NCBI GenBank assembly: GCA_030655515.1
Contig: JAURVI010000041.1
Location: forward strand, 17,428 to 81,427
Direction: 5' to 3'
Length of the DNA: 64,000 nt
DNA from: Polaromonas sp.
GTDB taxonomy: Bacteria > Pseudomonadota > Gammaproteobacteria > Burkholderiales > Burkholderiaceae_C
Part shown: in pieces, positions 10,808-41,457 of the stretch
Layout of the letters: each line of letters begins with the position of its first letter
Numbering within the stretch: position 1 is the stretch's first letter
Program-made: the position numbers and the translations under genes
The notes under the pieces: model-generated
What the model saw: the letters and a program-made list of their open reading frames with translations, nothing else
What the model was told of the DNA's origin: nothing
The model's database searches: none

Positions 10808-10832
10808 ACCCCCGACATGACGGAGACGACCG

Positions 10833-11156: not shown

Positions 11157-11160
11157 TCGC

Positions 11161-12567: not shown

Positions 12568-12596
12568 ACAGCGCAGGGTTCACTTTTCGGCGGCGC

Positions 12597-12722
12597 TAAG
12601 GCTACGCTGAATAAGTCCGTTCGCGTTGAGCCTGTCGAAACGCTGCCCTTGCAAATCAACAAGTTGCGAAGGACTTCGACAGGCTCAGTCCGAACGGGGA
12701 GACTTATTCAGCATTGCCCTAA
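12597..12722. repeat. MITE-like palindromic element, copy 1
   Basis: taaggctacgctgaataagtccgttcgcgttgagcctgtcgaaacg...ttcgacaggctcagtccgaacggggagacttattcagcattgccctaa; ends form ~20 bp imperfect inverted repeats; near-identical reverse complement at 14863-14989. Confidence 0.9.
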
Positions 12723-12842
12723 CCGGCGGTTCGGCGCTTGAAAAAGCGATGCGCCAGCCCAATTTCGTATAGTTGGCGGTCTTCCGGCGTGGACCTCCGC
12801 CGTTTGTACGAATTTTTTAGTTACCCTTCTTTTTCAAACCAC

Positions 12843-21711: not shown

Positions 21712-21909
21712 ATGCGTACCACCATCAATCTTGACGACGAACTGCTGGCCCAAGCCCAGCGCATCAGCGGCCTGACCGAGCGCACACAGCTTTTACGCGA
21801 AGCGCTGCTGGCACTGGTGCAGCGCGAGAGCGCCCGCCGCCTTGCCAAGCTGGGTGGCACCGAAGCCCAGTTGCAAGCCATCCCCCGGCGCCGGAATGCT
21901 TCTGCATGA
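21712..21909 (+). CDS. VapB-type antitoxin (module 1)
   Basis: MRTTINLDDELLAQAQRISGLTERTQLLREALLALVQRESARRLAKLGG; overlaps the downstream PIN gene. Confidence 0.88.
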   Translation: MRTTINLDDELLAQAQRISGLTERTQLLREALLALVQRESARRLAKLGGTEAQLQAIPRRRNASA

Positions 21910-22283
21910 TGCTGGTTGACACGTCGGTGTGGATCGACCACCTCAGGCAGGGTGACGCAAAATTGATGGTCGCACTCGAAGCGGGAGAAGTCTGGATGCA
22001 TTCCTTTGTGGTGGGAGAACTGGCTTGTGGCAATTTGCGCTCGCGAGCCGAGGTGCTGAGCCTGTTGCAGGCGCTTCCTTCGATGCCGATATGCACCGAC
22101 AAGGAAGTTCTGTTTGTGATTGACCGGCATGAATTGATGGGGCGAGGCATCGGTTTTGTCGACGCCCATTTGCTGGCGTCCGCCAAACTGGGCGGCGCCC
22201 GGCTTTGGACCCGGGACAAGCGGCTCCACACCATTGCGACTGAACTGGGCCTGGCGCATGCCGAAACACAAACGCAACACTGA
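21906..22283 (+). CDS. VapC-type PIN-domain toxin (module 1)
   Basis: MMLVDTSVWIDHLRQGD; ELACGN; GRGIGFVDAHLLASAKLGGARLWTRDKRL. Confidence 0.92.
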   Translation: MMLVDTSVWIDHLRQGDAKLMVALEAGEVWMHSFVVGELACGNLRSRAEVLSLLQALPSMPICTDKEVLFVIDRHELMGRGIGFVDAHLLASAKLGGARLWTRDKRLHTIATELGLAHAETQTQH

Positions 22284-22379: not shown

Positions 22380-22610
22380 ATGCGAACCACCATTGACCTT
22401 GCTGACGACGTTTTGGCTGCTGCCAAGGAGCTTGCCCGCCTTGAAAACAGCACCGCCGGTGCTGTGCTGTCGCGCCTGGCGCGGCAGGCGCTGACGGCTG
22501 GCAGCTCGGGTTCAGATCGCTCTGTGGCCGGCTTTCGTACCATTCCCCGGCGTGGCCATGTCGTGACCAACGATCATGTGAATGCGATCAGGGAGCAAGA
22601 GGGTATTTGA
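22380..22610 (+). CDS. VapB-type antitoxin (module 2)
   Basis: MRTTIDLADDVLAAAKELARLENSTAGAVLSRLARQAL; overlaps the PIN gene. Confidence 0.87.
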   Translation: MRTTIDLADDVLAAAKELARLENSTAGAVLSRLARQALTAGSSGSDRSVAGFRTIPRRGHVVTNDHVNAIREQEGI

Positions 22611-23053
22611 TGCGGGCGCTGCTAGATGTCAGCGTGCTGATCGCTTTGTTCGATTCCGAGCACATTCACCATGTTTCAGTGACGCGATGGTTTGCCGAAC
22701 ATGCCCGGCACGGTTGGGCCTCGTGCCCCCTGACGCAAAATGGCTGCATCCGGATTCTCTCGCAGCCCGCGTACGCCAACCATGCGCCCGCTGCTTTGGT
22801 GGCCGAGATTCTGGCTGAGGCCACGGCCGATCCCCGGCATGAGTTCTGGCCCGATTCGTTCAGTGTGTTGACGGCGGGTACCTTGCGCTGGGACCGGCTG
22901 CTAACCGGCCGGCACCTCACCGACGTGTATCTTCTGGCATTGGCTCAGCGCAACGCAGGGCGCCTGGTGACCCTTGATCAAGGCATTCCTGTTTCGGCCG
23001 TGCCTGAAGCGCGCGCCGAAAATCTGGCTGTCTTGCTGAACAAACCTCATTAA
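22610..23053 (+). CDS. VapC-type PIN-domain toxin (module 2)
   Basis: [60 protein letters not shown] overlap with the antitoxin. Confidence 0.92.
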
Positions 23054-24544: not shown

Positions 24545-24595
24545 ACTCTCCCGAATTGGTGATCATGAAAAACGAAAAAAACTAGATTGAATCAA

Positions 24596-25363
24596 ATGAA
24601 AGCTGTCATTCTTGCCGGGGGGTTGGGTACGCGAATTAGCGAAGAGACCTCAGTTAAACCCAAGCCGATGATTGAAATTGGAGGCCGGCCAATTCTCTGG
24701 CACCTCATGAAAATCTACGCCTCTCATGGTGTGAATGATTTCGTGATTTGTTGTGGCTACAAGGGTTACGTCATCAAAGAATACTTTGCCAATTATTTTC
24801 TGCATATGTCGGATGTGACGTTTGACATGGCCGGGAACTCGATGCAGGTTCATAGGCAGAAGGCAGAGCCCTGGCGAGTCACATTGGTTGACACCGGCGA
24901 AACAACCCAGACGGGTGGCCGTTTAAAACGGGTTGCCGAGTATTTGGGCGACGAAGATTTTTGTATGACCTATGGCGATGGCGTTGGCGATATCAATATC
25001 GCTGCAACGCTCGCGTTCCACAAGGAACATGGCCGGATGGCAACCATGACCGCGACCCAGCCGCCTGGTCGTTTCGGCGCTTTGGGTCTCAGTGGGACAT
25101 CGGTGCGCAGCTTCCTTGAAAAACCGCATGGCGATGGCGGCTGGATTAATGGTGGGTTTTTCGTGCTCTCGCCCAAAGTGCTTGACTTGATAGACGGCGA
25201 TGAGTCCATCTGGGAGCGCAAGCCACTGGAAGAGTTGGCGCGTACCGACCAGCTTCAAGCCTATCTTCACCACGGTTTCTGGCAGCCTATGGATACGCTT
25301 AGGGACAAGAACCACCTGGAAGACTTGTGGGATTCTGGCAAGGCGCCATGGAAGTTGTGGTGA
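24596..25363 (+). CDS. rfbF: Glucose-1-phosphate cytidylyltransferase
   Basis: [64 protein letters not shown]. Confidence 0.97.
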
Positions 25364-26454
25364 TGAGCGCCTCTTTCTGGCGTGGGCGCAAGGTTTTTAT
25401 TACCGGCCATACGGGCTTCAAGGGCGGCTGGTTGTGCCTGTGGCTGCAAAGCCTGGGCGCAGAAATAACCGGATTCTCGCTGGAACCGCCGACCAGTCCA
25501 AGCCTCTTCGAGGTAGCAAGAGTCGGGCAGGGGATGAGTTCCATCATTGGGGACATTCGGGATGGCGAGGTGCTGTCCCGCGCCATGAATGAGGCTCGCC
25601 CTGAGGTGGTCATTCACATGGCCGCGCAACCTCTTGTGCGCTACTCCTACGATCATCCGGTTGAAACCTATTCCACCAATGTGATGGGGACGGTTCATCT
25701 TTTAGAGGCTGTGCGGGCTGTGGGTACTGTTCGATCAGTGGTGGTGGTGACCAGCGACAAGTGCTACGAAAACAAAGAGTGGGTATGGGGCTATCGTGAA
25801 AACGAACCCATGGGTGGCTACGATCCCTACAGCAACAGCAAGGGGTGTTCGGAGTTGGTTGTGTCGGCCTACCGCTCTTCATATTTCAACCCGGATGCTT
25901 ATGAGAAGCATGGTGTAGCGCTAGCGTCTGCGCGAGCCGGCAATGTGATCGGGGGCGGTGACTGGGCGGGGGACAGGCTAATTCCGGACATACTACGAGC
26001 CATCGAAACATTATCGCCAGTGTTAATTCGTAGTCCTCGATCGATTCGCCCTTGGCAGCACGTGCTTGAACCGCTCTCAGGCTATCTTCTGTTGGCGGAA
26101 CGCCTTTATCAGGGTGGCGCGGAATATGCAGAAGGCTGGAATTTCGGACCTGCAGATAACGATGCTCGCTCGGTGGAGTGGATTGTCGAAAAACTGTGCA
26201 ATATATGGGGCGAGGGGGCAGCCTGGAGACTAGATACTGTAGTTGGTCCCCATGAGGCCCATTATTTGAAATTGGATTGTTCCAAAGCACAAAATGTACT
26301 TGGTTGGAAACCTGTTTGGAATCTCGAGACGACCCTGACTAAAATTGTCGATTGGCATCAGTCCGCTACTTCCGGTGAGGATATGCGAGCCGAGACGATT
26401 TCTCAAATCAAAGAATTTCAACGTAATATGCAATATTTAACCAAGGAGAAGTGA
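25363..26454 (+). CDS. rfbG: CDP-glucose 4,6-dehydratase
   Basis: [55 protein letters not shown] coupling with rfb[34 protein letters not shown]. Confidence 0.97.
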
Positions 26455-27257
26455 ACGTGAATGCAGTAGAAAGAAAGATGCTTGATATTCTCAAGATGTT
26501 GCGTCAGGAATATGGTGCTTTATCAGTCAAGGCGGAATTTGAGGCAGAGGGTACGCGTACAGACGAATTGCTTCGTTTAATTGATCTTGCGCGCCGTGCT
26601 GATTTGAAAGTGGGTTTAAAAATTGGAGGCGCCGAAGCAGTTCGTGACCTTATTGAAAGCAAGCAATTTGGGGTTGAATATATCATCGCCCCTATGGTTG
26701 AAACTCCTTATGCTCTCAAGAAGTTTATTGAAGCAAAAAACAAAGTATATACTAAAGGACAGCGGGAATATACAGATTTTCTTTTTAATCTTGAAACAGA
26801 AACTACGTTTGGTTCCCTTCAGGAGTTGGTCAAGGTGGCAAAATCAGAAAATGGTGTTCAAGGTATCGTCTTTGGTCGAGTTGATTTTGTCGGATCGATG
26901 GGGCAATCCAGAGACGCGATTGATTCTTCCAAGATTACTGATTATGTGGTTTCCACTGCCGAAGCTGCCAAGGCCGGCGGTCTTGACTTGGTGGTTGGTG
27001 GCGCGGTATCGATCGACTCACTGCCCGAACTCCGTAAGGTCAACAACGTTCATTTGACCCGCTTTGAAACCCGCAAGGTTATCTTCGATGCGAGCGCGCT
27101 AGATAGTCCGAAAATGACAAACGGATTGAAGGAAACGGTTCACTTTGAATTGCTCTGGCTGGAAAACAAGCGCGACTACTATGGTGAAATCCAGGGAGAA
27201 GACTCAAGCCGCATTGAAATGCTTGAAAAGCGTTGGTCAAAATTGAGTGCTGCGTAA
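26451..27257 (+). CDS. HpcH/HpaI aldolase / citrate-lyase-superfamily-like protein
   Basis: [33 protein letters not shown]...[21 protein letters not shown]...[18 protein letters not shown]-barrel-like pattern. Confidence 0.68.
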
Positions 27258-27296: not shown

Positions 27297-28013
27297 GTGC
27301 CTAAACAATCTGTAGTCATTTTTGGCGCATCGGGCGCAATTGGCCAAGCTCTTTGTGAGAGTTTTCTCGCGAAGGATTTTGAAGTGGTGGCCATCAGCCG
27401 GGCAGAGAGGACTCCCAATGACCCTCGGTCCAAGGCCGACTGGTTGGTCTGGGACGTTTCCGACGGCGGAGGCGCTCTCGTCGCTTTTGATAATTCGCGG
27501 CAATTCGACGCGGTGGTTTGGGCGCAGGGCGTCAATTGCAGCGATGATATATACACTTTTGATTTGAAGGCGCATGAGGAGATATATGCCGCCAACGTGA
27601 CTTATATACTTGTCAGTCTGCAAGTCTTGTTGCGGCATAACTTGCTCACACCGTCGGCGCGTCTTTGCATCATTAGTTCAATCTGGCAGAATCTGGCTCG
27701 CCAAAACAAGTTGTCGTACTGCATCACCAAATCAGCGTTGCAGGGGCTGGTGCAGTCTCTTACGGTTGATCTCGGGCGTTCGGGGTATCTTGTGAATGCG
27801 GTACTACCAGGCGCGTTGGACACCCCGATGACCCGCGCCAATCTCAGCGGCGAGCAGATAAGTCGTCTGGAGGGGATGACCCCATTGGGAAGTCTCCCCG
27901 AGTTGAATGACGTGTGCAATCTCGTTGGTTTTCTGTGCTCCCGTGACAACACAGGCATTACGGGGCAGTTCATTGCGGCCGACAGAGGGTTTTCATATGC
28001 AAGAATCGTTTGA
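27297..28013 (+). CDS. SDR-family NAD(P)-dependent oxidoreductase
   Basis: GTG start; VVIFGASGAIGQALCESFLAK; NxxG-like WAQGVN; SYCITKSALQGLVQSL (YxxxK). Confidence 0.88.
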   Translation: MPKQSVVIFGASGAIGQALCESFLAKDFEVVAISRAERTPNDPRSKADWLVWDVSDGGGALVAFDNSRQFDAVVWAQGVNCSDDIYTFDLKAHEEIYAANVTYILVSLQVLLRHNLLTPSARLCIISSIWQNLARQNKLSYCITKSALQGLVQSLTVDLGRSGYLVNAVLPGALDTPMTRANLSGEQISRLEGMTPLGSLPELNDVCNLVGFLCSRDNTGITGQFIAADRGFSYARIV

Positions 28014-29091
28014 AGTTTCTGCCTCTGGCGGCGGCTATCGGGTGGTTGTCGGTCGAGGTCTCCTAAAGGAAGTCGTTGCCGATAATCCTGATGCCATCTT
28101 TATGGTTGATGATCACTTGGCGCCGTTGTTGCCTATTCCCGTCAACTGCCGGATCCTTGTCAAGGCATTGGAAGCCAATAAATCCCTGGAATGCATGTCG
28201 GAAATCGTACTCAAGTTACGTGAATTGGGCGCGAATCGGGCAACTCATTTAGTTGCGATCGGCGGCGGGGTTATTCAGGATGTCGCCACATTTTCTGCCT
28301 CGATCTATATGCGGGGAATTCGGTGGACGTATATGCCCACTACTTTGCTGAGTATGGCGGACTCCTGTATTGGCGGGAAATCCTCTATTAACGTATTGGG
28401 TTACAAGAATCTTGTCGGCAATTTCTATCCACCGAAAGAGGTTTTGATCGACATCGATTTCGTCGCCAGCCTGGATTCCGAAAAAGTTGTCGGAGGACTA
28501 TTTGAGGCCGCAAAAATCTGCTATGCCCGCGGCTATCAAGACTTCCAGGATTATCTCTCCGACGGTACTGCTGCCCAGATGTCGGTGGATAATGTCCAGC
28601 GCATCATTGTTCGTGCCTTGCGAACGAAGAAGTGGTTTATTGAAACCGATGAATTCGACCAAAAGGAACGACTACTTCTGAATTTTGGTCATACTTTCGG
28701 CCATGCCATTGAAGCGGGTACCAATTTCAGCGTGCCCCACGGGGTCGCGGTCGGGGTTGGAATGATTGTCGCCGTTGAATATGCCAAAAAGCGGGGTTGG
28801 CTGTCCCCAACAGGTATTGAAAGAACTTCCAACTTGTCCAGGCATGCCAAATCTATGCTTAGGTTGGATGGCGGCAGTATCGTCGCGGTGCCCGCAGCCA
28901 TTGACCTGAAATTGGTCATGGAAAAATTCAATAATGACAAAAAGCACCTCTCTGACACATATCGTATGGTATGTCCTCGAGGGGCTGGTGAGCTTGAATT
29001 GGTTTCCGAGGCAAAGAATGACGATACGCATCGTGATATCACTTGGGCCTATGAAAGCGCGTTGAGGGAAATTGGTTGGCAGACAAAGTGA
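27997..29091 (+). CDS. 3-dehydroquinate synthase / sugar-phosphate cyclase family protein
   Basis: GGGVIQDVATFSASIYMRGIRWTYMPTTLLSMADSCIGGKSSINVLGYKNLVGNFYPPKEVLID; LLLNFGHTFGHAIEAGTNFSVPHGVAVGVGM. Confidence 0.92.
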   Translation: MQESFEVSASGGGYRVVVGRGLLKEVVADNPDAIFMVDDHLAPLLPIPVNCRILVKALEANKSLECMSEIVLKLRELGANRATHLVAIGGGVIQDVATFSASIYMRGIRWTYMPTTLLSMADSCIGGKSSINVLGYKNLVGNFYPPKEVLIDIDFVASLDSEKVVGGLFEAAKICYARGYQDFQDYLSDGTAAQMSVDNVQRIIVRALRTKKWFIETDEFDQKERLLLNFGHTFGHAIEAGTNFSVPHGVAVGVGMIVAVEYAKKRGWLSPTGIERTSNLSRHAKSMLRLDGGSIVAVPAAIDLKLVMEKFNNDKKHLSDTYRMVCPRGAGELELVSEAKNDDTHRDITWAYESALREIGWQTK

Positions 29092-30143
29092 TGCAGACAA
29101 TGACGAATTGGCATTTTGCGCAAGATATTGACTTCATTCTCGGCGCCACTGAAGACGTGTGGCCGGCGTTGCGTGGCGCCCGGCTGTTCATTACCGGGGG
29201 CACTGGCTTCATCGGCTGCTGGTTGCTGGAAAGCCTGCGCCATGCTGACCAGCGTCATAAGCTCGGTGTGCAGGCCACTGTCCTGACGCGGGACCCTCAT
29301 GCTTTCCGGCGTAAGGCGCCTCATCTGGCCGATTACCCTGGCTTTAGCTTCATCGCCGGAGATGTCTGTAATTTCGAGACGCCGCCGGGTGAGTTCACAC
29401 ACCTTATTCACGCCGCCACGGACGCCAGTGCCGACCTCAACGAGAACGATCCCCGGCGCATGTTTGACACGGTGTTGCAGGGAACGCGTCGGGCGCTTGA
29501 TTTCGCGGTGGAAAAAGCCGTGGACCGGGTACTCTTTCTCAGTTCCGGAGCAGTTTATGGCCAGCAGCCCTGGGAAATGGAACGGGTTGCCGAAAGCTGG
29601 ACCGGCGCCCCCAGTTGTGTCGACGCCCGGGCTGCTTACGCAGAAGGTAAAAGAGCGGCAGAAATGTTATGCGCCATTTATCAGAAACAGTTTGGCGTAA
29701 AAATTGCAATCGCCCGCATATTTGCCCTGCTTGGGCCTTATCTGTCTTTGGACATTCACTTCGCGGCAGGAAATTTCATTAGAGATGCCATGCAGGGTAA
29801 GTCGATCACGGTCAATGGCAACGGTTTGCCCTGCCGGTCCTATCTTTACGCTTCAGATCTGACGGTTTGGTTATGGCACATGTTGGTGCGCGCAGAGCCG
29901 GGCAAGCCTTACAACGTGGGGTCTGACATATCGATATCTGTTCGGGAGTTGGCTGAGACGGTATCTGATACGCTCGGTAACGTAGGGTGCAGAGTTCTCG
30001 GTGCCCCAGACCAGGGGTGGAATCTTGGACGCTACGTCCCGGATACCAGCCTCATCGGCCGCGATCTAGGCTTGCATCAAACAGTTGGCTTGAATGAAGC
30101 GATACGCAGAACTGCGCTTTGGCATGGATGGAAAGGAAAATAA
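29091..30143 (+). CDS. NAD-dependent epimerase/dehydratase (extended SDR)
   Basis: LRGARLFITGGTGFIGCWLLESL; LFLSSGAVYG; AYAEGKRAAEML; TGATG coupling to the cyclase gene. Confidence 0.92.
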   Translation: MQTMTNWHFAQDIDFILGATEDVWPALRGARLFITGGTGFIGCWLLESLRHADQRHKLGVQATVLTRDPHAFRRKAPHLADYPGFSFIAGDVCNFETPPGEFTHLIHAATDASADLNENDPRRMFDTVLQGTRRALDFAVEKAVDRVLFLSSGAVYGQQPWEMERVAESWTGAPSCVDARAAYAEGKRAAEMLCAIYQKQFGVKIAIARIFALLGPYLSLDIHFAAGNFIRDAMQGKSITVNGNGLPCRSYLYASDLTVWLWHMLVRAEPGKPYNVGSDISISVRELAETVSDTLGNVGCRVLGAPDQGWNLGRYVPDTSLIGRDLGLHQTVGLNEAIRRTALWHGWKGK

Positions 30144-30147
30144 TTAA

Positions 30148-31953
30148 ATGAAGTTATCTGATTATGTAGCCCAGAAAGTTGTGGAGCACGGTGTGCGGCA
30201 TGTGTTCATGGTTACCGGTGGTGGTGCCATGCACCTTAACCATTCCTTGGGAACGCATAAACAACTGGAATGCGTGTTCAACCACCATGAACAAGCTTGT
30301 GCCATTGGAGCAGAAGCCTACTACAGGCTCACCAACCGCTTGCCGGTTGTCAATGTGACATCCGGGCCTGGTGGTACCAATGCCATTACCGGGGTGTATG
30401 GCGCTTTCGTTGACTCCATCGGCATGCTGGTCTTGTCTGGTCAGGTGAAATGGGAGACCACGGTACGCAGCACCGGCCTGCCTTTGCGGCAGTATGGCGA
30501 CCAGGAACTTGATATTGAAGAACTGGTGCGCCCCGTCACCAAGTACTGCTTCATGGTGACTGATCCGCAAACTATCCGTTACCACCTGGAAAAGGCCATT
30601 TACCTGGCCAGTGCTGGGCGTCCTGGCCCATGCTGGCTGGATATCCCTTTGAATGTTCAGGGTGCCCAGATCGATCCAGACAGCTTGCCTGGCTTTGATC
30701 CGGCCGAACTGGACGAGCCCTGGAAGCGCACTGATCTCAACGCTGTGAGCGCGGCTATCCTGGAGAAAGTCGCCGCAGCCAAGCGCCCGGTGGTGTTCGC
30801 TGGCGGCGGGGTGCGGCTGAGCGGCCAGCACGCGGCTTTTATCCGTCTGGTGGAAAAGCTTGGCATCCCGGTCGTGACCGGCTGGAACGCTCACGACGCC
30901 ATCTGGGACGCCCATCCCACTTACGCCGGACGCCCCGGGACGATTGGAGACAGGGCGGGAAACTTCACGGTTCAAAATTCTGACCTTCTGCTTATTTTGG
31001 GCAGTCGTCTCAATATTCGCCAGGTAAGTTACAACTGGAAGACCTTTGCACGAGAGGCCTACAAGATCTGGGTGGATATCGACGAGAACGAGCTGAAGAA
31101 GCCCACCGTCAAGGCCGACATGCCTGTGCACGCAAGTCTTGCCGACTTGTTGCCGGTTCTCGCTGACCAAGCCTACGCTGGCCCCACTCAGGAGCAGAAG
31201 GCATGGCTGGCGTGGTGCAAGGAGCGGCAACGTCGTTTCCCGGTAGTTCTGCCCGAGTACTGGAACAACGACAGGGTCAATCCCTACTGTTTCATGAAGA
31301 CCCTGTTCGAACAGCTGGAAGAAGGTCAAACGGTGGTGACGGCGAACGGCTCTGCCTGTGTTGTCAGTTTCCAGACGGCCGAACTCAAGCCCGGCCAACG
31401 GCTGTGGACCAATTCAGGCTGCGCAACCATGGGGTACGACCTACCAGGGGCCATAGGCGCCTGCAAGGCATCGGGCGACAAGCCTGTTGTTTGCCTTGCC
31501 GGCGACGGCAGCATCATGATGAATCTGCAGGAGTTGCAGACCATTGTTGGCAACCGGCTGCCGATCAAGATATTTATCCTGAACAACAGCGGTTACGTTT
31601 CCATCTTTCAAACCCACCGCAATTTCTTTGGTGGTGTGGAAGTGGGCGGTGGCCCCAAGAGCGGCGTCACCTTCCCGGATTTTGGTCGCCTGAGCGACGC
31701 GTTTGGCCTGCCTTATCGCCGCTGCGCGAACCATCAGGAAATGGCGCAGGCGATTGCCGATACCATGGCCGTCGATGGCCCGTCCGTGTGCGAGATCATG
31801 CTGGACGAGAACTTGTCGTTCGCTCCCAAGCTGGGTGCCAAGCAATGGCCCGATGGGCGCATCACGTCCCCCGCGCTGGAAGACCTCTCGCCATTCCTCT
31901 CCAGGGAAGAGCTGCGGGAGAATATGCTCATCGACCTGATTGAGGATCAGTGA
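30148..31953 (+). CDS. Thiamine-pyrophosphate-binding protein, acetolactate-synthase-like (candidate YerE-type enzyme)
   Basis: MKLSDYVAQKVVEHGVRHVFMVTGGGAMHL; FNHHEQACAIGAEAYYR (catalytic Glu region); VCLAGDGSIMMNLQELQTIVGNRLPIKIFILNNSGYVSI (TPP motif). Confidence 0.93.
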   Translation: MKLSDYVAQKVVEHGVRHVFMVTGGGAMHLNHSLGTHKQLECVFNHHEQACAIGAEAYYRLTNRLPVVNVTSGPGGTNAITGVYGAFVDSIGMLVLSGQVKWETTVRSTGLPLRQYGDQELDIEELVRPVTKYCFMVTDPQTIRYHLEKAIYLASAGRPGPCWLDIPLNVQGAQIDPDSLPGFDPAELDEPWKRTDLNAVSAAILEKVAAAKRPVVFAGGGVRLSGQHAAFIRLVEKLGIPVVTGWNAHDAIWDAHPTYAGRPGTIGDRAGNFTVQNSDLLLILGSRLNIRQVSYNWKTFAREAYKIWVDIDENELKKPTVKADMPVHASLADLLPVLADQAYAGPTQEQKAWLAWCKERQRRFPVVLPEYWNNDRVNPYCFMKTLFEQLEEGQTVVTANGSACVVSFQTAELKPGQRLWTNSGCATMGYDLPGAIGACKASGDKPVVCLAGDGSIMMNLQELQTIVGNRLPIKIFILNNSGYVSIFQTHRNFFGGVEVGGGPKSGVTFPDFGRLSDAFGLPYRRCANHQEMAQAIADTMAVDGPSVCEIMLDENLSFAPKLGAKQWPDGRITSPALEDLSPFLSREELRENMLIDLIEDQ

Positions 31954-32396
31954 TGGGGCTGTGGCGGCGTGGTCTGGACATCGGTCTGGGCATTGCCAGC
32001 CGCCACCAGACGAAAGTCAGATTTCTCCTGGCCGGTGCGCTCAATACGGCCATCGGCTTGGCGGTTTACCCGGGCTTATATTTTCTTGCGGCTCCACTGA
32101 AGCTTCACTACCTGACGATTTTGGTTATCAGTCAAGTAGTGTGCGTGATATTCGCTTTTTTGACCAACAAGTTCCTAGTATTCCGGACTACGGGGAATTA
32201 CTTGCGGGAGTCCGGAAAATTTCTGACATTTCATTTTTCCTATTTTCTGCTGAATCTCGCAGCATTGCCCGCGCTGGTGGAGCTTGCGGGCATGAACCCG
32301 GTGTGGGCGCAGACGCTTTTTGCGGTGCTGGTCATCGTCACCAGCTACTTTTGGCATAGCCGTATTACATTCTCATCGTCCAAGGTGACCCGTTAA
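31953..32396 (+). CDS. GtrA-family membrane protein (set 1)
   Basis: VRFLLAGALNTAIGLAVYPGLYFL...VICVIFAFLTNKFLVFR-like pattern; four TM segments; TGATG coupling. Confidence 0.88.
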   Translation: MGLWRRGLDIGLGIASRHQTKVRFLLAGALNTAIGLAVYPGLYFLAAPLKLHYLTILVISQVVCVIFAFLTNKFLVFRTTGNYLRESGKFLTFHFSYFLLNLAALPALVELAGMNPVWAQTLFAVLVIVTSYFWHSRITFSSSKVTR

Positions 32397-33334
32397 TGGA
32401 AAAACCAGCTTTTCTCAGTCGTATCTGTCCGGTGTGTTCCAGCAAACCACCTGCACAAGCAGCCATTCAGTCCGAGGTGACTGCGGAGTCACTGGATTTT
32501 GATGCCTTGGTTCCTTGCTGGAACGGCTTTTTCAAGGACAAGGTGTTTTTCTCCTATGTCCGCTGTGGCGGCTGCGGCTTGCTTTATGCCCCCACCTTCT
32601 TCAATGGCCCTCAGTTGGAGCAGCTTTACGGCCAGATGCCGCCCAACATGGCGGAAGTCCCGATGAAGGCCTTGCGTCGGACCCAGCATGGTTATTTTGA
32701 GGCGCTCAAAAGCTGCTCCGACCTCGATGGCGGATTCATTGAAGTGGGACCAGACATTGGTCTGTTTACCGAGAATTGCGTGCGCGAAGGGCGATATAAT
32801 GAATATTGGCTCTTTGAACCCAACCGGGAAGTATTGCCGGCCTTGAGCAAAATCGTTGAAGGCCACAAATACCACGTCATCCATGACATGTTTGGCTTTT
32901 CGCATGTCCTGGATCATGCCGCATCTGCTGCAGTAATGATCCACGTTCTGGACCATTTGCTTGATCCTGTAGCGACATTGAGCGAACTCAGGCAGAAGCT
33001 GAAGCCGGGGGCCCGCTTGTTGCTGGTCACCCACGACGAGTCATCTCTTCTGCGGCGCCTTGTGGGCTGGAGGTGGCCGGCATTCTGTCTTCAACACCCC
33101 CAAATTTACAGTCCGCAAAGCATGCGTAAATTGCTCGAAGCTGCCGGATTTGAAGTGCTGGAACGGCGCAAGACCGTCAACTTTTTCGAAATTGGCTTTC
33201 TCCTGAAGCATTTGCTGTGGGCCTTCGGCATCAAGGCCCAGTCCGTGCCGAGTTTCGGGCGCTTCACACTGGGACTCAAGCTCGGCAACATGCTGACCAT
33301 CGCAACACCGAAACCCGGGAGACATCATGTCTGA
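32396..33334 (+). CDS. Class I SAM-dependent methyltransferase with N-terminal zinc-binding Cys pairs
   Basis: CPVCSSKPP...VRCGGCGLLYAPTFF; GGFIEVGPDIGLFTENC; HVLDHLLDPVATLSELRQKLKPGARLLLVT. Confidence 0.85.
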   Translation: MEKPAFLSRICPVCSSKPPAQAAIQSEVTAESLDFDALVPCWNGFFKDKVFFSYVRCGGCGLLYAPTFFNGPQLEQLYGQMPPNMAEVPMKALRRTQHGYFEALKSCSDLDGGFIEVGPDIGLFTENCVREGRYNEYWLFEPNREVLPALSKIVEGHKYHVIHDMFGFSHVLDHAASAAVMIHVLDHLLDPVATLSELRQKLKPGARLLLVTHDESSLLRRLVGWRWPAFCLQHPQIYSPQSMRKLLEAAGFEVLERRKTVNFFEIGFLLKHLLWAFGIKAQSVPSFGRFTLGLKLGNMLTIATPKPGRHHV

Positions 33335-34265
33335 GCGCCCGCTACTGAGTATCGTCACTCCCTGTTTCAACGAAGAGGACAACGTTGACGAGCTCTACAG
33401 GCGGATCAGGGCCGCGATTGCCGGCTTGACGAAATACGAGTTCGAGTTGATCTTTATTGACAACCACTCAGAGGACGGAACCGTGGCCAAGCTCAAGAGC
33501 CTGGCGGCGAGCGACCCGGCTGTCAAGATCATCGTCAATGCGCGCAATTTCGGCCATATCCGTTCCCCCTATTACGGCATTCTCCAGTCGCGCGGTGTCG
33601 CTACCATCTACCTCGCCTCCGACCTGCAGGACCCGCCGGAATTGATTCCGGAGTTCATCAAGCATTGGGAAGAGGGCTACAAGCTGGTCATGGCGATCAA
33701 GCCCGTGAGCAAGGGTGTTGCCTGGGTCCATGCCCTGCGCAAGGCCTATTACCGCTTTGTGGATGGGATTTCCGACATTTCTCTGGTGGCGGACTCCACG
33801 GGGTTCGGCCTGTACGACCGCAAAGTTCTGGATCACCTGCGCCAGATCAACGACCCCTATCCCTTTTTGCGCGGCCTGATTTGCGAGCTGGGTTACGACA
33901 TCAAGACCATTCCGTTCGATCAGCCGAGACGGCTGCGTGGAATATCAAAAAACAACTTCTACACGCTCTACGACATCGCGATGCTGGGGATCGTCAGCCA
34001 TTCCAAGGTTCCCATCCGGATTGCCGCTTTCGTGGGTTTTGCGCTGGGTCTATTCAGTGTGCTTGCGGCAATGGTTTTTCTGATACTGAAACTCCTGTTT
34101 TGGGAGTCTTTCCCACTAGGGATTGCCCCCGTGGTGATTGGCCTCTTTTTCCTGTTCGGTATCCAGTTGATGTTTATTGGGATCCTCGGGGAATACATCG
34201 GCTCAATACATACTTATCTTCAACGTCGGCCGGTGGTAGTTGAAAAAGAGCGAATAAATTTTTGA
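33327..34265 (+). CDS. GT2-family glycosyltransferase, GtrB/DPM1-like with C-terminal TM segments
   Basis: LLSIVTPCFNEEDNVDELYRRI; ASDLQDPPELIPEFIKHWEEGYKLVMAIK; two C-terminal TM helices, FGIQLMFIGILGEYIG. Confidence 0.93.
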   Translation: MSERPLLSIVTPCFNEEDNVDELYRRIRAAIAGLTKYEFELIFIDNHSEDGTVAKLKSLAASDPAVKIIVNARNFGHIRSPYYGILQSRGVATIYLASDLQDPPELIPEFIKHWEEGYKLVMAIKPVSKGVAWVHALRKAYYRFVDGISDISLVADSTGFGLYDRKVLDHLRQINDPYPFLRGLICELGYDIKTIPFDQPRRLRGISKNNFYTLYDIAMLGIVSHSKVPIRIAAFVGFALGLFSVLAAMVFLILKLLFWESFPLGIAPVVIGLFFLFGIQLMFIGILGEYIGSIHTYLQRRPVVVEKERINF

Positions 34266-34323: not shown

Positions 34324-36813
34324 ATGCGCAATATAAGCCTAACGCGGATAGTCGTAGCTCACGCGCTTTTCCAGATTCCCGGACTTCTTGCACTGGCACA
34401 TTTTGTTGCCGAGCAGTCACGCCGGACTTGGGAGAGAAGTCACTACATCGATAATTTGGCCGCTTGGGCCATTCAGCCGCAACCCCCCAAGATCGAGAGC
34501 ATTCTTGAATACGCTTTGCTCTTGGCATTAGGGGCGGTCCTGATTCTTGTTGTTGCTGCGTATTCGCGTCGGGATCGTGGCTATGTTCGGATGGGGGGCT
34601 GGCAATGGGCCGCACTTGGGGCCTATGAACTTGCCTGTTTGATCGCGCCTGGTCAATCAGGCATGCCAATCGGGTGGTTGGTGTTGGCAATTTTGCTGCC
34701 CATGTGGCTTTTTTCATGCAATCGAAAATCTCCAACAGTGGTTGCGCAACGCACATACCTTGCGATTGCAGCTGGAGCTTTGGGCTCTGCATTGTGGCTA
34801 CTGGCCGCGACCTCCTGGAGCCCCGAACTACGCTTCATCAACGATTACGCAGACTTTCCTGAATACACCCGCCTGCAGGACGGCCGCTTGGTCGAAAATG
34901 CCGAATTCCTGCGCGCCAATAGTATTCCCGGTTGGTCCAAAGCCAGTTCATGCGAGGAAAAAGACGCCACGGCTTTAAACGTTTGCCTGCCCCTGAGCAA
35001 GGCGGTATTTCGCGATGCGTATGAGTCTTTTCTGTTGTTTCCTCCGGGGAGTGGTCTTGCATACAGCTGGGACAAAGAGATCTTGCTTGCCTATAGACCA
35101 CTGGGTGAAAAAGAAAAGCTGCTGATTCAATCGTTGTGGGGAGTGAAGCCCGATCTCCTGGAAAAAGATAAGCTGCGCTCAAAGAACTATTGGCGGGGGC
35201 CGAAAGAGAAAGCAAGCGGTGCTGAGTCAGTTCTGCCGCAGGAAAACTATAGAGTAAAAGAGTTTCTTCAAAAAAATAACAATGAACTTGAAGCCCAACG
35301 CCAGCTGGGCCGGTTTTTTTATCATCACGCCTATCTTTATCTTCCAGCGCTGGAGAGAGTGCTGTTTCCTGGGGACCACATTACTCCGGCGCAATATGGC
35401 GAAGGTTTGACAAGCACCCTTGGCACCTTAATTAAAAGCTTCGGCGCGCCGACATTCCAGGCCTACTACAGTTTTTTTTGGTGGGGACTGTACGCCTATT
35501 TGGTGCTGCTTGGATTTGTCACATGGTGGATTACCCGGGATGCCTGGGCAAGTGTCCTGGCGACAGGCGCGGCCATGTCCCTTGTGCTGGTCATCAGCTA
35601 TGACGCCTTGCGCATGGCGCCCGGATTCAATCCGATCCGCCATTTTCCCGATCTTTTATGTTTCCTTGCAATCGCCCACGACTTGAGGCGGCGCTCGAGG
35701 CTGTCTGCCCTGCTACGCGCTGCTGCTATCGGGATACTGATCTGGTGGAATCGGGAATTCGGTCTCTTTTTTCTTGGCGCCAGCATGGCATGGCTCATTG
35801 CCGAAGCTTGCTCGGCGACAGGGCGCTGGCGCAGGCCGGTTGCTCAATTCGCTCTGGAAGCGGTTTTTGCGATCGTCTTGCTAATCAGTACAAATTCAGG
35901 GGGCATAAGCGATTTGGCCCAGTACAACCTGTTGGGAATCGGGGCCCCCTTGACGCGCTGGCGAGATGTTTTCGGCTGGCTGGCCATATGGACCCCATTG
36001 ATTGCCGGTTTGATTTGGATACGATTCTTCAGGGAGCAAGTGGCGGTCAGTGAAAGACAGAATAATCTGCTGGACATCGCTGGAATAGGGTCTGTATACG
36101 CCGCGCTGGCTACGATTTATGCGCTCTGGAATCCATCTCCAAATCATGCCGCTGTTATTTGGATGTGTGCGGTCATTCCACTCACTGCAGTCATCCTTTG
36201 GATCGTGGAGCTAGCCAGTCGTGACAAGGTTCAGCCGCACTATTTTTTAAAGTACAGTGCTGCAATATCAGTCTCCATATTGGCATTCATGATCGTCGGT
36301 AATCAAACTGTCCTGAGACAGTTTGAAGAAATATTTGATAACCATCAGGTGATGCGCTGGACTTTCCCTGGCTTGACAGGAAGCAGCACGGCTGACCCAA
36401 AGGTCATGCAGGAGAGCGTTGCGTTAATCGAAAAGTATCAGCCCAAAGGCCGAATTCTGCTGATATCGAGATACGACAGCTTGCTGCAGATATTGACCAA
36501 TCGCCTCCCGCTTCTCCCCTATGTTGAATTACCAGGTGCGGTGGTAAGTCGGGAAATGGTTGAAAAAATTGCTGCGCGGGTGCTGCAATCCAATGCGCAG
36601 TTTCTTTATGCAGATAAAGATTTACTCGACGAGCGGGAGTGGCAAATCCCCTATGACAATGAAGGTGAAGCAGATTCAGGAGCCGCCAACCGGGTGGCTT
36701 CGCTGGCGGCATTGGGACAGGTCTTTCATAGAATTGCGCATTGTTATACCCCTGGCGAAGCTCAAGGCGCATTGCGGGTTTGGCATCGGACCTGTGAGGC
36801 CCAGAAAATATGA
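34324..36813 (+). CDS. Large polytopic membrane protein (829 aa), GT-C-like, paralogue A
   Basis: Multiple TM segments; LEAQRQLGRFFYHHAYLYLPALERVLFPGDHITPAQYGEGLTSTLG motif shared with the next gene. Confidence 0.75.
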   Translation: MRNISLTRIVVAHALFQIPGLLALAHFVAEQSRRTWERSHYIDNLAAWAIQPQPPKIESILEYALLLALGAVLILVVAAYSRRDRGYVRMGGWQWAALGAYELACLIAPGQSGMPIGWLVLAILLPMWLFSCNRKSPTVVAQRTYLAIAAGALGSALWLLAATSWSPELRFINDYADFPEYTRLQDGRLVENAEFLRANSIPGWSKASSCEEKDATALNVCLPLSKAVFRDAYESFLLFPPGSGLAYSWDKEILLAYRPLGEKEKLLIQSLWGVKPDLLEKDKLRSKNYWRGPKEKASGAESVLPQENYRVKEFLQKNNNELEAQRQLGRFFYHHAYLYLPALERVLFPGDHITPAQYGEGLTSTLGTLIKSFGAPTFQAYYSFFWWGLYAYLVLLGFVTWWITRDAWASVLATGAAMSLVLVISYDALRMAPGFNPIRHFPDLLCFLAIAHDLRRRSRLSALLRAAAIGILIWWNREFGLFFLGASMAWLIAEACSATGRWRRPVAQFALEAVFAIVLLISTNSGGISDLAQYNLLGIGAPLTRWRDVFGWLAIWTPLIAGLIWIRFFREQVAVSERQNNLLDIAGIGSVYAALATIYALWNPSPNHAAVIWMCAVIPLTAVILWIVELASRDKVQPHYFLKYSAAISVSILAFMIVGNQTVLRQFEEIFDNHQVMRWTFPGLTGSSTADPKVMQESVALIEKYQPKGRILLISRYDSLLQILTNRLPLLPYVELPGAVVSREMVEKIAARVLQSNAQFLYADKDLLDEREWQIPYDNEGEADSGAANRVASLAALGQVFHRIAHCYTPGEAQGALRVWHRTCEAQKI

Positions 36814-39347
36814 ATATCCGCTCGTACTTCGCCGATAAAACCGTGAGCGCCCGCACAGCTGTGCTGGCGGTTTTGATGGCATTGGTCCCAGCCTTTTGGG
36901 GAATCGCGATCCCGTTTTCACGGCTGGCATTCCGGGGCAGTCTTTATGAATGGAATCGCGGCATATTTGACTGGGTGAATATTCCGCCAGAGGCCAAGAT
37001 AATCTTGATCTCTGGCTATGTATTTGCGTTCGCCGCCACGATGGCGATGCTCCTGCTGATTCTGCTGGGCGCACGCAAAACCGCCTACGCCGAGGTTCTG
37101 GAACGGCGTCTTGGGCGTTTTTCGCTGGCAAGCGTTGTCGGTTTTGTCGGGGCGCTCGCGGTCCTGGGTGTTGCCGGATTCGTCCTGCTTTATACACGGC
37201 ATGTTTTTTCAGCTTATGCGGCTTTTGCTTTGGGCGCTTCGGCTTGTGCTGTGGTCGGCTTCTGGGTGTCTTTTCGCATCAAAGCGCCGGGCTCATATCG
37301 TCCTCTGCTCGCCATTCTTCCCCTGCTGATCGGGATCTGCCCGCTCATCTATGCCTTGCTACTGACGCCATTTCGTGTGCCGAACGAATTTCTGGCGTTG
37401 CCGGAGGAGACGATTCTTGCGAGCGGTAAGCGCATCGACAACATCGAATTCATCAACTCCAGACGCTTCGAAGGTTTGGTCGTCCCTGATCCACGGTTGA
37501 GCCTCAAAGGACTTGAGGCATCTGCTATAAGAATTGGGCTTACGGCTGATATCGATCCATGGGCCATTGAATCTCTGGAAAAAAGCGCACCGGAGCGCTT
37601 CAGGTACGACCGCACCAATGCTCAACTGGAGATTCATGGCTCGCTAAATTGGGAGGAGTTCCAGTATTTATCGCCATTGGCTCAGGAAGCCGACTTGAGG
37701 CGGCTGGAGGCTAAATTTGCTGCTGATTCCATGGCAGCCCGGAGACTGGCTGGCGAGAGATACGACAAAGATGAACTGGAGTTTCTTCGGGCCAATCGGC
37801 CGGAGCTCGAGCGGCAACTGGTATTGGGCCGCTTTTTCTATCATCACGTGTTCTTGTTTCTACCCGCGGTCGCCGGGGTACTGGATGGTGTGCTTGTTTC
37901 TGCTTCCCAATATGGACGAGGGTTGACAGTTTTCTTCGCAGAAGTGCTGAAACGTACCCCGGAAAATCTCCGCTTCAACAGTTATCTTGCCCTGCTTTAT
38001 TTAAGCTACCCCTTGTACCTAGCGGGAATTCTTCTTGTGGCGTACCGTCTGGGGCTTTGGCGGTGGAGCGCCATTTTTGTTGCTTCGGCAACACTCATAG
38101 GTTATCTTGCATCGGAAATAGAAACTGTCCGGCTTGGCGTAGGATTGGCTCCATGGCGTCACTTTTTTGATATCACGATTCTTTATTACTTGTTTCGGTA
38201 CATACGAAGTCAAACCCCCGCTGATGGATTGATGCTGGTAGCCATGACGGGATTTTCGGTTTACTGGTCGAGAGAAATGGGTCTCTTCCTCGGAATAGCA
38301 GTTATCTTCGGCTTGACCAATCACGCTGTAAGTTCGCGTCGAAGCCGGCAGTGGTTGCTGGTGGTTGCCGGTATTCTTTCAGTCGTGCTCGGCTACTGGC
38401 TGGGTGACCCTAACGCGCTAACCCACCCCGATGCTGCATTGCTGGGTCTGAATACGCCAAGTTTGCCTGCTGGCTTTATTTCGATACTGGCCGGAGGGCT
38501 ACTCCTGGCGGGTGGATTTTGGTGGGTTAGACGACCCGAAAATCCAGTTCAGGCCAGTGTTCATTATGCCGAGTGGATATTCCTTGGCACTTCCCTTGCC
38601 TATACTGCAATTTGCGGTATATATCTGCTCTGGTATCCCAGGCCGCACCATTTGGCGCCCATCATGCCGGTGATCGGCTTGGCGATGGCGCTTGCCTACC
38701 GGCATTATTTCGATCCCTCAAAGCCTTACAGTATCAAAATTGCTGCCACGACCATGGGATTGGCGCTGTTCATGCTAACTCTTCTGGGTGCGCTTGGAAT
38801 TTTCGAACTCAGGAAAGAGGCGGGTATTTTTCGTACTCATGTCGTTCACAACTGGAGTTTTCCAAATGGACAGATGACGAGTACCGGGCAGCCAGAGCTG
38901 ATAAGCGAGAGCATCGACCTTATTCGAAAGCACGAAATAAACTCGTCAGTGAATATCTTGTCGCCATGGGAAGTGGTGTTGCTGCCCTTTGCCGGAAAAT
39001 ATAAATCCGGGCCATTTCTGGTCTCTTTTGATTCCTTGTTTTCGGATAAAGAAGTCAAGCAGCTCGCTGAACATTTGACATCTTCCCCAGACAAAGTCTT
39101 GTTCGTTGACTCAAGGATTAGCCAAGGACAATATGAGTGGTCGCTGGACGCCAATGCCTATATGAAAAATAGAGTATATGCTTCAACGCTGCGACTGGCC
39201 GCTCATGCGAGTCTGCGGCGTGTTTTCGAGATCGTGAAGCCATGCTATGAGCTGGTAGAGGAAGGGCGTCTGATCTCGGCTTATATGCGAAAACCTGCTG
39301 CCAAATGGACTGGTGAAGCATGCATCACGGGCGAGAAACAACCTTGA
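36810..39347 (+). CDS. Large polytopic membrane protein (845 aa), GT-C-like, paralogue B
   Basis: ATGA coupling to the previous gene; LERQLVLGRFFYHHVFLFLPAVAGVLDGVLVSASQYGRGLTVFF matches paralogue A. Confidence 0.75.
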   Translation: MNIRSYFADKTVSARTAVLAVLMALVPAFWGIAIPFSRLAFRGSLYEWNRGIFDWVNIPPEAKIILISGYVFAFAATMAMLLLILLGARKTAYAEVLERRLGRFSLASVVGFVGALAVLGVAGFVLLYTRHVFSAYAAFALGASACAVVGFWVSFRIKAPGSYRPLLAILPLLIGICPLIYALLLTPFRVPNEFLALPEETILASGKRIDNIEFINSRRFEGLVVPDPRLSLKGLEASAIRIGLTADIDPWAIESLEKSAPERFRYDRTNAQLEIHGSLNWEEFQYLSPLAQEADLRRLEAKFAADSMAARRLAGERYDKDELEFLRANRPELERQLVLGRFFYHHVFLFLPAVAGVLDGVLVSASQYGRGLTVFFAEVLKRTPENLRFNSYLALLYLSYPLYLAGILLVAYRLGLWRWSAIFVASATLIGYLASEIETVRLGVGLAPWRHFFDITILYYLFRYIRSQTPADGLMLVAMTGFSVYWSREMGLFLGIAVIFGLTNHAVSSRRSRQWLLVVAGILSVVLGYWLGDPNALTHPDAALLGLNTPSLPAGFISILAGGLLLAGGFWWVRRPENPVQASVHYAEWIFLGTSLAYTAICGIYLLWYPRPHHLAPIMPVIGLAMALAYRHYFDPSKPYSIKIAATTMGLALFMLTLLGALGIFELRKEAGIFRTHVVHNWSFPNGQMTSTGQPELISESIDLIRKHEINSSVNILSPWEVVLLPFAGKYKSGPFLVSFDSLFSDKEVKQLAEHLTSSPDKVLFVDSRISQGQYEWSLDANAYMKNRVYASTLRLAAHASLRRVFEIVKPCYELVEEGRLISAYMRKPAAKWTGEACITGEKQP

Positions 39348-39384
39348 ACCGTGATTGCACGAATCAGCATTCCCTGGAGTCCCA

Positions 39385-41412
39385 ATGAAAATTAGAAACA
39401 AACTGCTTTGGCTGCTGGGTGCTTCGACCATTCTGGCCTTGGCGCTATATTTTGCTATCGACATCTCGGGAAAGAAGGTATCAAAAGGGGTTGAGGTCGC
39501 AAGCTTGTCATGGGAAAGTCCAGCAAAGGATGGCAGCATCCGGGAGCCTATACGTTACAAAGAGACGGATAAGGCTAGGTATAAATATTTTCATATTCAT
39601 TTCTCGTTTAAGGCGAACCACAACGAGGGGCATCCGAATATTCTACAAACGGCGAGCAGCAATTCCGGTATCCGGCTTGAGCTGGGAAAGCCATCTGTAT
39701 TGGCACTTATCGTTGGGCGGGCTGAAGATTCGTTTGTGCTGACGCAGGCTTTGACACTGGGAGCGTGGCACGAGGTTTCTATCGACATCAGTTCGAATAA
39801 CCATCTTCGGGTTACTGTTGATGATATTCTGGTGGTCGATCAAAGTCGCCGTCTTGATTACCAAATCGATGATATTGCAATTGGTTCAGGCTTCAGCGCC
39901 ACAAGACCATTTAATGGCGAGATCAAGGTGCATACCCTTTCCTACGGGTTCATGGAGAGAAACGAACTGCTCATCAAGGCTTTGGCTTCATGGATACTGT
40001 TTGCCGTGGTCGTATTTGTGGCAGTACTGGCTGCCCCAACCTTCCGATTTTTAGCTCGTATCTTTTCAAAAGCTCACGCACAGTGGGGCGTACTAAAACT
40101 AAAAATACCTGAGTTCCTGCGAGTCCAGCAAGAAGGGGCTTCAAAAATTCCCCGTTTTGAAACTAATAGAAAAAGCGAGAAAGCAGAACTGGTTAAACTT
40201 ATTCTGGTAGTTGGTACGGTTGCAGCAATAATATTTCACTACTCGAGGTTCGCTTTTGTCGGCGATCATGCGCCAAAACCTGATAGTTTTCTTCACTTCC
40301 CGGTAAATATATTCTGCGATTTTTATTCTCTCTTCGATGGCTATGTTCGCATGAGGTATAGCGTCGCAATGAATTATCTTCCCGCCTTGTTCATTCCACT
40401 TGATCTTCTGGCGAGGGTGACGGTGAATAACCCCTATCTGGCGATTAAAATTTTGCTTGCCCTTTATCTGGCGTTACTTGTACCTTATATATATTTGAGC
40501 TTGCGCGGGATGCGAGCCGTGCCCAGGACATTGACCGCCTTTGCATTGATTGCATGTAATTATCCGGTACTCTTTACGATCCACTCCGGGAATTTTGAGA
40601 TGCTTTGCTTCTTGCTGGTGGCTTATGCAATCCTCTTTAGAATCAAAAAGCTTTACGTTTTGGCCGGTACATTGATTGGTATTGCGGCAGCCATCAAGCT
40701 TTATCCGGCCATCTTTCTCTTTTCTATAGTTTCCAGAAAAAACTGGAAGCAGCTTTTTCTAGGTTCTGCAGTCGGGTTTGCTCTATCAATCACCATCGGT
40801 TTCGCCATGACCGGATCTATGCTCGGAAATATTGTTGCGTGGGCTGGTGTGGTGCAGAGAGGTTTTGAAAATTACACCGGGATGATGGTGCTTTCGTATA
40901 ACGGCGTGTATTTCGGCCATTCCATAATGAACGCATTCCGCATTATAGTCGGCCCGGGATACAGCATAGCCGCACTGTTGCCTTACTATTCCATTTTTTC
41001 TGCGATTGCAATCCTTGGTGTTTTAGCCGTGATGCAAAAGTCACGATATCTGTACCTGAGGGTCTTGTTGCCTGCCTGCGCAATTTGCCTTTTCGCGCCA
41101 ACCTCCCAGGACTACAAGTTGCTGTATCTGACCATTCCGCTGCTCATGTTGCTGCGTTCAAACAGGAACTATCGGCATGAGACGGCTTTGTGCGTACTTG
41201 TTACGCTGATACTTATTCCAAAAGCGTACATCACTTTCTATGGTTCAACATATGTCAATACGAACACGCTTTTAAATGCGTCTCTTCTTCTGATCGTTCT
41301 GTCGTATGGTATGTATTTGTCTTTTTTCGACAAGAAATTCAAGCGGTCAGATGTACCTGGAAGTCAGACACCCAATGAAGTTGTACTTATGCGCGGGAAA
41401 AATTCGTCCTGA
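39385..41412 (+). CDS. GT87-like (DUF2029) polytopic glycosyltransferase with N-terminal LamG/ConA-like extracytoplasmic domain
   Basis: N-terminal TM then KYFHIHFSFKANHNEGHPNILQTASSNSGIRLEL...WHEVSIDISSNNHLRVTVDDILV (beta-sandwich pattern); C-terminal SGNFEMLCFLLVAYA...AAAIKLYPAIFLF typical of GT87. Confidence 0.72.
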   Translation: MKIRNKLLWLLGASTILALALYFAIDISGKKVSKGVEVASLSWESPAKDGSIREPIRYKETDKARYKYFHIHFSFKANHNEGHPNILQTASSNSGIRLELGKPSVLALIVGRAEDSFVLTQALTLGAWHEVSIDISSNNHLRVTVDDILVVDQSRRLDYQIDDIAIGSGFSATRPFNGEIKVHTLSYGFMERNELLIKALASWILFAVVVFVAVLAAPTFRFLARIFSKAHAQWGVLKLKIPEFLRVQQEGASKIPRFETNRKSEKAELVKLILVVGTVAAIIFHYSRFAFVGDHAPKPDSFLHFPVNIFCDFYSLFDGYVRMRYSVAMNYLPALFIPLDLLARVTVNNPYLAIKILLALYLALLVPYIYLSLRGMRAVPRTLTAFALIACNYPVLFTIHSGNFEMLCFLLVAYAILFRIKKLYVLAGTLIGIAAAIKLYPAIFLFSIVSRKNWKQLFLGSAVGFALSITIGFAMTGSMLGNIVAWAGVVQRGFENYTGMMVLSYNGVYFGHSIMNAFRIIVGPGYSIAALLPYYSIFSAIAILGVLAVMQKSRYLYLRVLLPACAICLFAPTSQDYKLLYLTIPLLMLLRSNRNYRHETALCVLVTLILIPKAYITFYGSTYVNTNTLLNASLLLIVLSYGMYLSFFDKKFKRSDVPGSQTPNEVVLMRGKNSS

Positions 41413-41457
41413 TCATTTTTTTATTTCAAGTGAAGTAGATGCAGAGAATTGTTCCCA

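Follow-up and report, generated by a model that had tools for sequence, protein, structure and literature searches.

An AroB-like gene inside a glycan operon

Why does a glycan operon carry a gene of the 3-dehydroquinate synthase (DHQS, AroB) family, and which reaction might its product catalyse there? We addressed this question for a 64,000-nucleotide stretch of a Polaromonas sp. contig (hereafter the window), where the operon order is rfbF-rfbG-HpcH-SDR-DHQS-epimerase-ThDP-GtrA-methyltransferase-GT2. The genes are given below with window coordinates, strand, assignment and supporting evidence.

24587..25363, +, rfbF, glucose-1-phosphate cytidylyltransferase (TIGR02623, 482.6 bits; cut-off 300.25)
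25363..26454, +, rfbG, CDP-glucose 4,6-dehydratase, giving CDP-4-keto-6-deoxyglucose (TIGR02622, 507.4 bits; cut-off 278.45)
26451..27257, +, putative divergent HpcH/HpaI-type class II aldolase (PF03328, E 2.3e-8; AF2/Foldseek; metal-ligand Glu and Asp kept)
27297..28013, +, SDR-family reductase (Pfam adh_short_C2, E 4.9e-25; synteny)
27997..29091, +, predicted DHQS-family (AroB-like) phospholyase (Pfam/NCBIfam, own clade, active-site residues kept, AF2 model)
29076..30143, +, NAD-dependent epimerase/dehydratase-family enzyme (PF01370, E 1.8e-35; copies 45-81% identical in 8 other loci)
30148..31953, +, YerE/JanthE-like ThDP-dependent carboligase (best solved relative JanthE, 8rph)
31950..32396, +, GtrA-like flippase (PF04138, E 4.7e-19)
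32396..33334, +, methyltransferase (PF13489, E 2.1e-23; kept in loci L003 and L007)
33327..34265, +, GtrB/DPM-like family 2 glycosyltransferase (PF00535, E 2e-24)

The DHQS-like ORF (27997-29091, + strand) is intact and encodes 364 aa. Its frame is open from 27907; the orthologues begin at the Met at 27997 (MQESF...), and therefore 27997-29091 are the right boundaries, as the initial annotation had placed them. The end of the SDR gene overlaps its start by 17 bases. The motifs quoted in that annotation match the protein letter for letter, except that the one given as 'GKNLVG' actually reads GYKNLVGNFYPP. The segments said there to deviate from housekeeping AroB are real and clade-specific: GGGxxQD (GGGxxGD in AroB), DSCIGGKSSIN, EAAKICYA, TKKWFIETDEFD and DKKH.

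The protein matched PF01761 (DHQ_synthase; E 1e-35, 122.3 bits, cut-off 24.2) and PF24621 (DHQS_C; E 9.7e-27). Its AF2 model, built from nine orthologues (pLDDT 83), matched solved AroB structures in Foldseek (E 6.5e-23). By both Pfam score and fold, it belongs to the sugar phosphate cyclase (DHQS) superfamily. The two top NCBIfam matches, TIGR04425 (291.4 bits) and aroB (249.6 bits), were below the respective cut-offs of 400 and 305, so that the protein is a confirmed member of neither family.

The DHQS-like protein is distinct from the housekeeping AroB

A second, stronger DHQ_synthase match (171 bits) is located on contig C23 of the host genome, and the window gene is thus not the only aroB-type gene of this organism. 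A separate aroB was also present in eight of the nine genomes that carry an orthologue of the DHQS-like gene, the ninth being a small genome bin. The DHQS-like protein and the AroB of its own genome are 29% identical.

We compared the protein in a phylogenetic tree with AroBs of the same genomes, TIGR04425 members, two DOIS and an aminoDHQS-like protein from an ansamycin-type plasmid cluster. The DHQS-like protein and its relatives formed their own clade (support 100/99), apart from AroB, aminoDHQS and DOIS, with the TIGR04425 members as the neighbouring clade. In a sequence search of solved structures, EEVS and DDGS (4e-25 and 1e-16, respectively) were more distant from the protein than AroB (1e-40). 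Within the known superfamily, the DHQS-like proteins make up a new clade.

Within this clade the branching follows the loci and not the species, with Methylotenera (beta) placed next to Crenothrix and Methylomonas (gamma). The gene was absent from all the 36 same-genus genomes and rare in the genomes sampled at class, order and phylum level. Its occurrence is patchy, and it was probably moved horizontally. Among the matches listed in a search of plasmids for its relatives, all were below 39% identity and most were aroB.

These data bear on the simplest explanation, a second 3-dehydroquinate synthase, in which a duplicated aroB provides extra shikimate. The DHQS fold and the full set of catalytic residues (see below) would fit such a role. 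However, the sub-threshold aroB score, the separate clade, the low identity to the AroB of the genome, the absence from the rest of the genus and the consistent linkage to CDP-sugar genes leave it with a minimal probability.

Active-site residues suggest a DAHP-like substrate

All the AroB catalytic positions that we checked are conserved in the DHQS-like protein (K62, D122, K128, N138, E170, K173, H232, H236, H248 and DKK), in agreement with the retained NAD/metal core that had been read from the sequence at the outset. The metal, NAD, phosphate and carboxylate-site residues, including K211, R225, N229 and DKK, are kept in all 12 tabulated members of the clade. We take K211 and R225 to be the residues assigned to the DAHP carboxylate in the Aspergillus DHQS structure. 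The protein is probably functional as an enzyme. Residues, separate aroB and own clade together uphold the main proposal of the initial annotation, namely a catalytically intact, non-housekeeping cyclase homologue in a glycan operon.

The clade-typical changes, Q94, W110, C124, K212-W213 and H317, adjoin active-site residues in the sequence, suggesting a substrate that probably resembles DAHP without being handled in an identical way. Thus, compared to AroB, the protein has the fold and all the checked catalytic, metal, phosphate and carboxylate-site residues in common, whereas it differs in its clade, its score below the cut-off, these clade-typical positions and its linkage to CDP-sugar genes.

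Two other substrates had been considered for this gene. The DOIS proteins (BtrC and Sodalis DOIS) share the superfamily and the metal and NAD core, but lie on a separate branch and carry A/G at R225, E at N229, N at K315 and N at D95 (positions of the DHQS-like protein). Our protein retains R225, N229 and both lysines of DKK, which makes DOIS-type cyclitol synthesis from Glc-6-P unlikely. A CDP-sugar, which is expected to serve the adjacent ThDP enzyme as acceptor, is also an unlikely substrate. Residues alone are no proof of substrate, since in the published superfamily tree (PMC5133447) the position of confirmed EVS enzymes would let them be taken for DHQS.

The gene is part of a conserved cassette with a YerE-like carboligase

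The combination of HpcH (or NeuB), SDR, DHQS, a YerE-like ThDP enzyme and rfbF/rfbG recurs in alpha-, beta- and gammaproteobacteria and in Actinomycetota, being partial on short contigs. SDR-DHQS together with rfbF/rfbG and the YerE-like enzyme was observed in ten loci (L003, L006, L007, L009, L011, L050, L055, L056, L057 and L078). L079 has SDR-DHQS, the YerE-like enzyme and rfbF, and rfbG was not found in the stretch examined. On the short contigs L004, L005, L008 and L010, the cassette is visible as far as the contig extends. Copies of the GT2 gene (40-78% identical) are present in L003, L007, L008, L009, L050 and L055. A Rieske-domain protein (10326-11249) lies inside the diverged version of the cassette in L050, and a 780-residue protein with a PF07906 (Toxin_15) domain (11620-13959) stands beside the cassette in L055.

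Among solved structures, JanthE (8rph) was the closest to the ThDP enzyme (408 bits over 593 residues). JanthE is a YerE-like enzyme whose physiological substrates are described as unidentified (PMC12188165). The window enzyme (30148-31953) has the usual GDG motif where JanthE has CDG, and such a GDG-bearing relative may serve as a natural comparison for biocatalysis. Enzymes of the YerE type decarboxylate an alpha-keto acid and couple it to the C4 ketone of a CDP-4-keto sugar, with ErwE and MMAR_2332 favouring longer, hydroxylated substrates; an in-silico survey of >200 YerE-like clusters is cited in the same paper (PMC12247030). The window resembles the YerE, ErwE, MMAR_2332 and JanthE systems in having CDP-4-keto sugar genes and a YerE-like ThDP enzyme, closest to that of JanthE.

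In the open-licence literature we found no explanation of where the long, hydroxylated alpha-keto acids used as donors by these enzymes come from, no DHQS-family enzyme named in the YerE, ErwE, MMAR_2332 or JanthE pathways, and nothing joining DHQS with CDP-glucose, thiamine pyrophosphate and O-antigen; an earlier description elsewhere is possible.

The step before the DHQS-like enzyme probably resembles DAHP synthesis

An AF2 model of the putative aldolase (pLDDT 88.7) matched HpcH/HpaI class II pyruvate aldolases in Foldseek (E ~1e-8, TM about 0.6), and no sequence match was obtained among solved structures. Its metal-ligand Glu and Asp align with those of canonical HpcH/HpaI members; a clear counterpart of the HpaI catalytic His is missing from the alignment. 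The aldolase role therefore rests on the fold, the metal ligands and the following gene replacement.

In L004 and L011, the gene before the SDR encodes a NeuB-family synthase (PF03102, E 1.7e-36 and 3.2e-37, respectively) in place of HpcH. The two NeuB-type proteins are 84% identical to each other, and 3g8r is their closest solved relative. HpcH was not found in either genome, in a search where three controls scored. The DHQS-like proteins of these loci are among the nearest to that of the window (72% identity over 320 residues, and for L011 84% over the 150 residues preceding a masked run). HpcH aldolases and NeuB synthases have a common product type, a 2-keto-3-deoxy acid made from a C3 unit and an aldose. 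The replacement of one by the other, with this common product type, indicates that the step adjoining DHQS would be analogous to DAHP synthase.

HpcH relatives also occur without SDR and DHQS, and all five such loci (L066, L067, L068, L080 and L081) have a HAD phosphatase. Relatives of these HAD phosphatases were found in none of 16 DHQS loci, in a search covering relatives of the query HADs. The phosphate seems to be removed by either a HAD phosphatase or the DHQS-like enzyme. HpcH proteins scoring >420 bits adjoined SDR and DHQS in 5/5 genomes found independently by the HpcH search, and those scoring <280 bits in 0/6. These counts are small, and the loci are related by descent.

L066, L067 and L068 form a further branched-sugar variant without DHQS, where the HpcH-like gene is accompanied by radical SAM proteins and a HAD-IIA phosphatase, with a NUDIX protein in L066 and L067 and, in L067 and L068, a YerE-like ThDP enzyme about 51-52% identical to that of the window.

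The order of the steps could be the reverse, as the loci of the neighbouring clade suggest. TIGR04425 is named 'AroB-related putative sugar phosphate phospholyase (cyclizing)', and its members share the GGGxxQD signature and an SDR gene close by or directly upstream of the DHQS-like gene. Loci of this type are L047 and L049 (also L051-L054), all with SDR and DHQS-like genes; where scanned, they have a GmhA-like SIS isomerase, a Gfo/Idh/MocA oxidoreductase and a KdsB/NeuA-like cytidylyltransferase, and look like a separate CMP-activated sugar pathway. The window locus has instead the HpcH/NeuB step and the YerE-like enzyme. The proteins also differ, as the TIGR04425 members that we fetched read GSK and NYGHS/C...DKKN/R where the window protein reads GGK, NFGHT and DKKH.

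By analogy to these loci, the SDR and the DHQS-like enzyme might act first, turning a sugar phosphate such as sedoheptulose 7-P into an aldehyde or ketone, to which the aldolase might then add pyruvate to give the ThDP donor. The combination of SDR-DHQS with an SIS isomerase, and the canonical HpcH/HpaI aldolase that L047 and L049 also bear, argue for this order. However, it is weakened by the NeuB-type replacement and the kept carboxylate-site residues, both of which favour the aldolase before DHQS, and we consider it improbable. The partners found in TIGR04425-type loci (SIS isomerase, Gfo/Idh/MocA, cytidylyltransferase) nevertheless indicate other chemistry, and in this respect speak against the explanation that we prefer.

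A proposed route to a C4-branched sugar

Because of the NeuB replacement, the HAD/DHQS exclusivity, the split in HpcH score and the kept carboxylate-site residues, we infer a route that passes through an ulosonate phosphate, its dephosphorylation, the SDR and ThDP carboligation, with the DHQS-like enzyme removing the phosphate from a DAHP-like 2-keto-3-deoxy-ulosonate phosphate. That it is a dedicated phospholyase of a YerE-type branched-sugar pathway appears likely. Our best explanation, a non-housekeeping phospholyase in the pathway to a C4-branched CDP-6-deoxyhexose for a surface glycan, has about even chances. This confidence lies between that in the wider claim and that in a version without ring closure, which we put forward tentatively, at somewhat under even chances. 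In this last version, the AroB sequence of oxidation, elimination and reduction turns a terminal CH2-O-phosphate into a methyl ketone, which is reduced by the SDR to give a 3,7-dideoxy-heptulosonate donor for caryophyllose-type C12 sugars.

The steps would be as follows, steps 2 to 7 being predicted as reactions from the gene content. RfbF and RfbG would make CDP-4-keto-6-deoxyglucose (step 1). The HpcH-type aldolase, or the NeuB-type enzyme in two relatives, would join an aldose phosphate (probably erythrose 4-phosphate) with a C3 unit to form a DAHP-like 2-keto-3-deoxy-ulosonate phosphate (step 2). The DHQS-like enzyme would oxidise this, eliminate the phosphate and reduce in the manner of AroB, most likely releasing an open-chain 7-deoxy-6-keto acid without ring closure (step 3), whose ketone the SDR would reduce to a 3,7-dideoxy-hept-2-ulosonate (step 4). 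The YerE-like enzyme would decarboxylate this donor and attach the remaining C6 chain at C4 of the CDP-4-keto sugar (step 5). The epimerase-family enzyme (29076..30143), probably a branched-ketone reductase, would reduce the new ketone (step 6). Attachment of the sugar would fall to the GtrB-like transferase, GtrA and periplasmic transferases (step 7).

Two further gene roles may be added. The methyltransferase (32396..33334) probably acts on the sugar, and the GtrB/DPM-like GT2 probably loads the completed sugar onto the lipid carrier. Downstream, five large membrane proteins (829, 845, 685, 972 and 638 aa) are encoded consecutively at 34324-46250; one has a GT87 match, one a weak PMT_2 match and the other three have no Pfam match. 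They are probably GT-C-family transferases and are candidates for attaching the branched sugar. Elsewhere in the window, two PIN-domain (VapC-like) genes (21906-22283 and 22607-23053) lie between rmlD and rmlA of the rhamnose operon.

Steps 2-6 would give a 4-C-(1,3,4,5-tetrahydroxyhexyl) branch, which is the side chain of caryophyllose. RfbH is a DegT-family enzyme of 3-deoxygenation. RfbH-like genes are present in L006, L009, L011, L050, L055, L057, L078 and L079, that of L011 being the one checked with the NCBIfam RfbH model. As no RfbH was found in the window's genome (85% complete; searched with no positive control), the product would be caryophyllose-like with the 3-hydroxyl retained. 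Caryophyllose itself is 3,6-dideoxy-4-C-[D-altro-1,3,4,5-tetrahydroxyhexyl]-D-xylo-hexose (PMC5706390). The genes of L079 (RfbH, GT2, reductase, HpcH, ThDP, DHQS, SDR and rfbF) match its step count one-for-one, except for rfbG. The open-licence papers on caryophyllose contain structure and mutant data, with no gene-function list showing the same set in M. marinum.

Ring closure and the donor of the ThDP enzyme

The reaction of DHQS normally ends with an intramolecular aldol step, and in the known enzyme the ring closes readily. The DHQS-like enzyme might therefore form a quinate- or DHQ-like carbocycle from its DAHP-like substrate; the SDR would then reduce the ring ketone, the carbocycle would enter the glycan and the ThDP enzyme would build a separate branch from a simple keto acid. 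Every checked residue of the cyclising AroB is kept, and the sister family TIGR04425 is named 'cyclizing'. Every characterised member of the superfamily known to us cyclises. However, ring closure as in AroB uses up the 2-keto group, so that the product could not be the alpha-keto-acid donor and the adjacent ThDP enzyme would be left without a donor from this route. Moreover, we saw no cassette gene for a ligase or acyltransferase that would act on a quinate-like acid, and the mutual exclusion of HAD and DHQS suggests that two routes run in parallel towards a single type of donor. We regard this carbocyclic route as rather unlikely; release without ring closure fits the donor logic better.

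The enzyme could also act later than the ThDP step and close a ring in the CDP-sugar's side chain, so that a bicyclic or cyclohexyl-bearing sugar similar to bradyrhizose results. The pocket of AroB is small, and the carboxylate-site residues are kept, both of which make this quite improbable. A bicyclic C10 sugar, bradyrhizose, does exist, with its genes reported as unknown apart from the gdh cluster, for which the published text gives no gene functions (PMC4743980). A thin sample of 398 genomes from the order of Rhizobium sp. AC27/96, the carrier of L007, yielded only L007 itself and two TIGR04425-like copies. Bradyrhizose is not supported as the product.

Implications for the AroB family

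EboD is an earlier case in which proteins annotated as AroB turned out to be a new sugar-phosphate-cyclase clade; the ebo operon is proposed to lead to an isoprenoid-cyclitol compound, and the neighbours described there are from other families (PMC5133447). The annotation '3-dehydroquinate synthase' in glycan loci can hide a different enzyme. The window cassette supplies candidate enzymes for every step of the proposed route and one directly testable substrate, DAHP. A dephosphorylating role in a branched-sugar pathway, which we did not find in the open-licence literature searched, would give the AroB family a new job. If the reaction does proceed without ring closure, a textbook enzyme family would gain a new reaction outcome.
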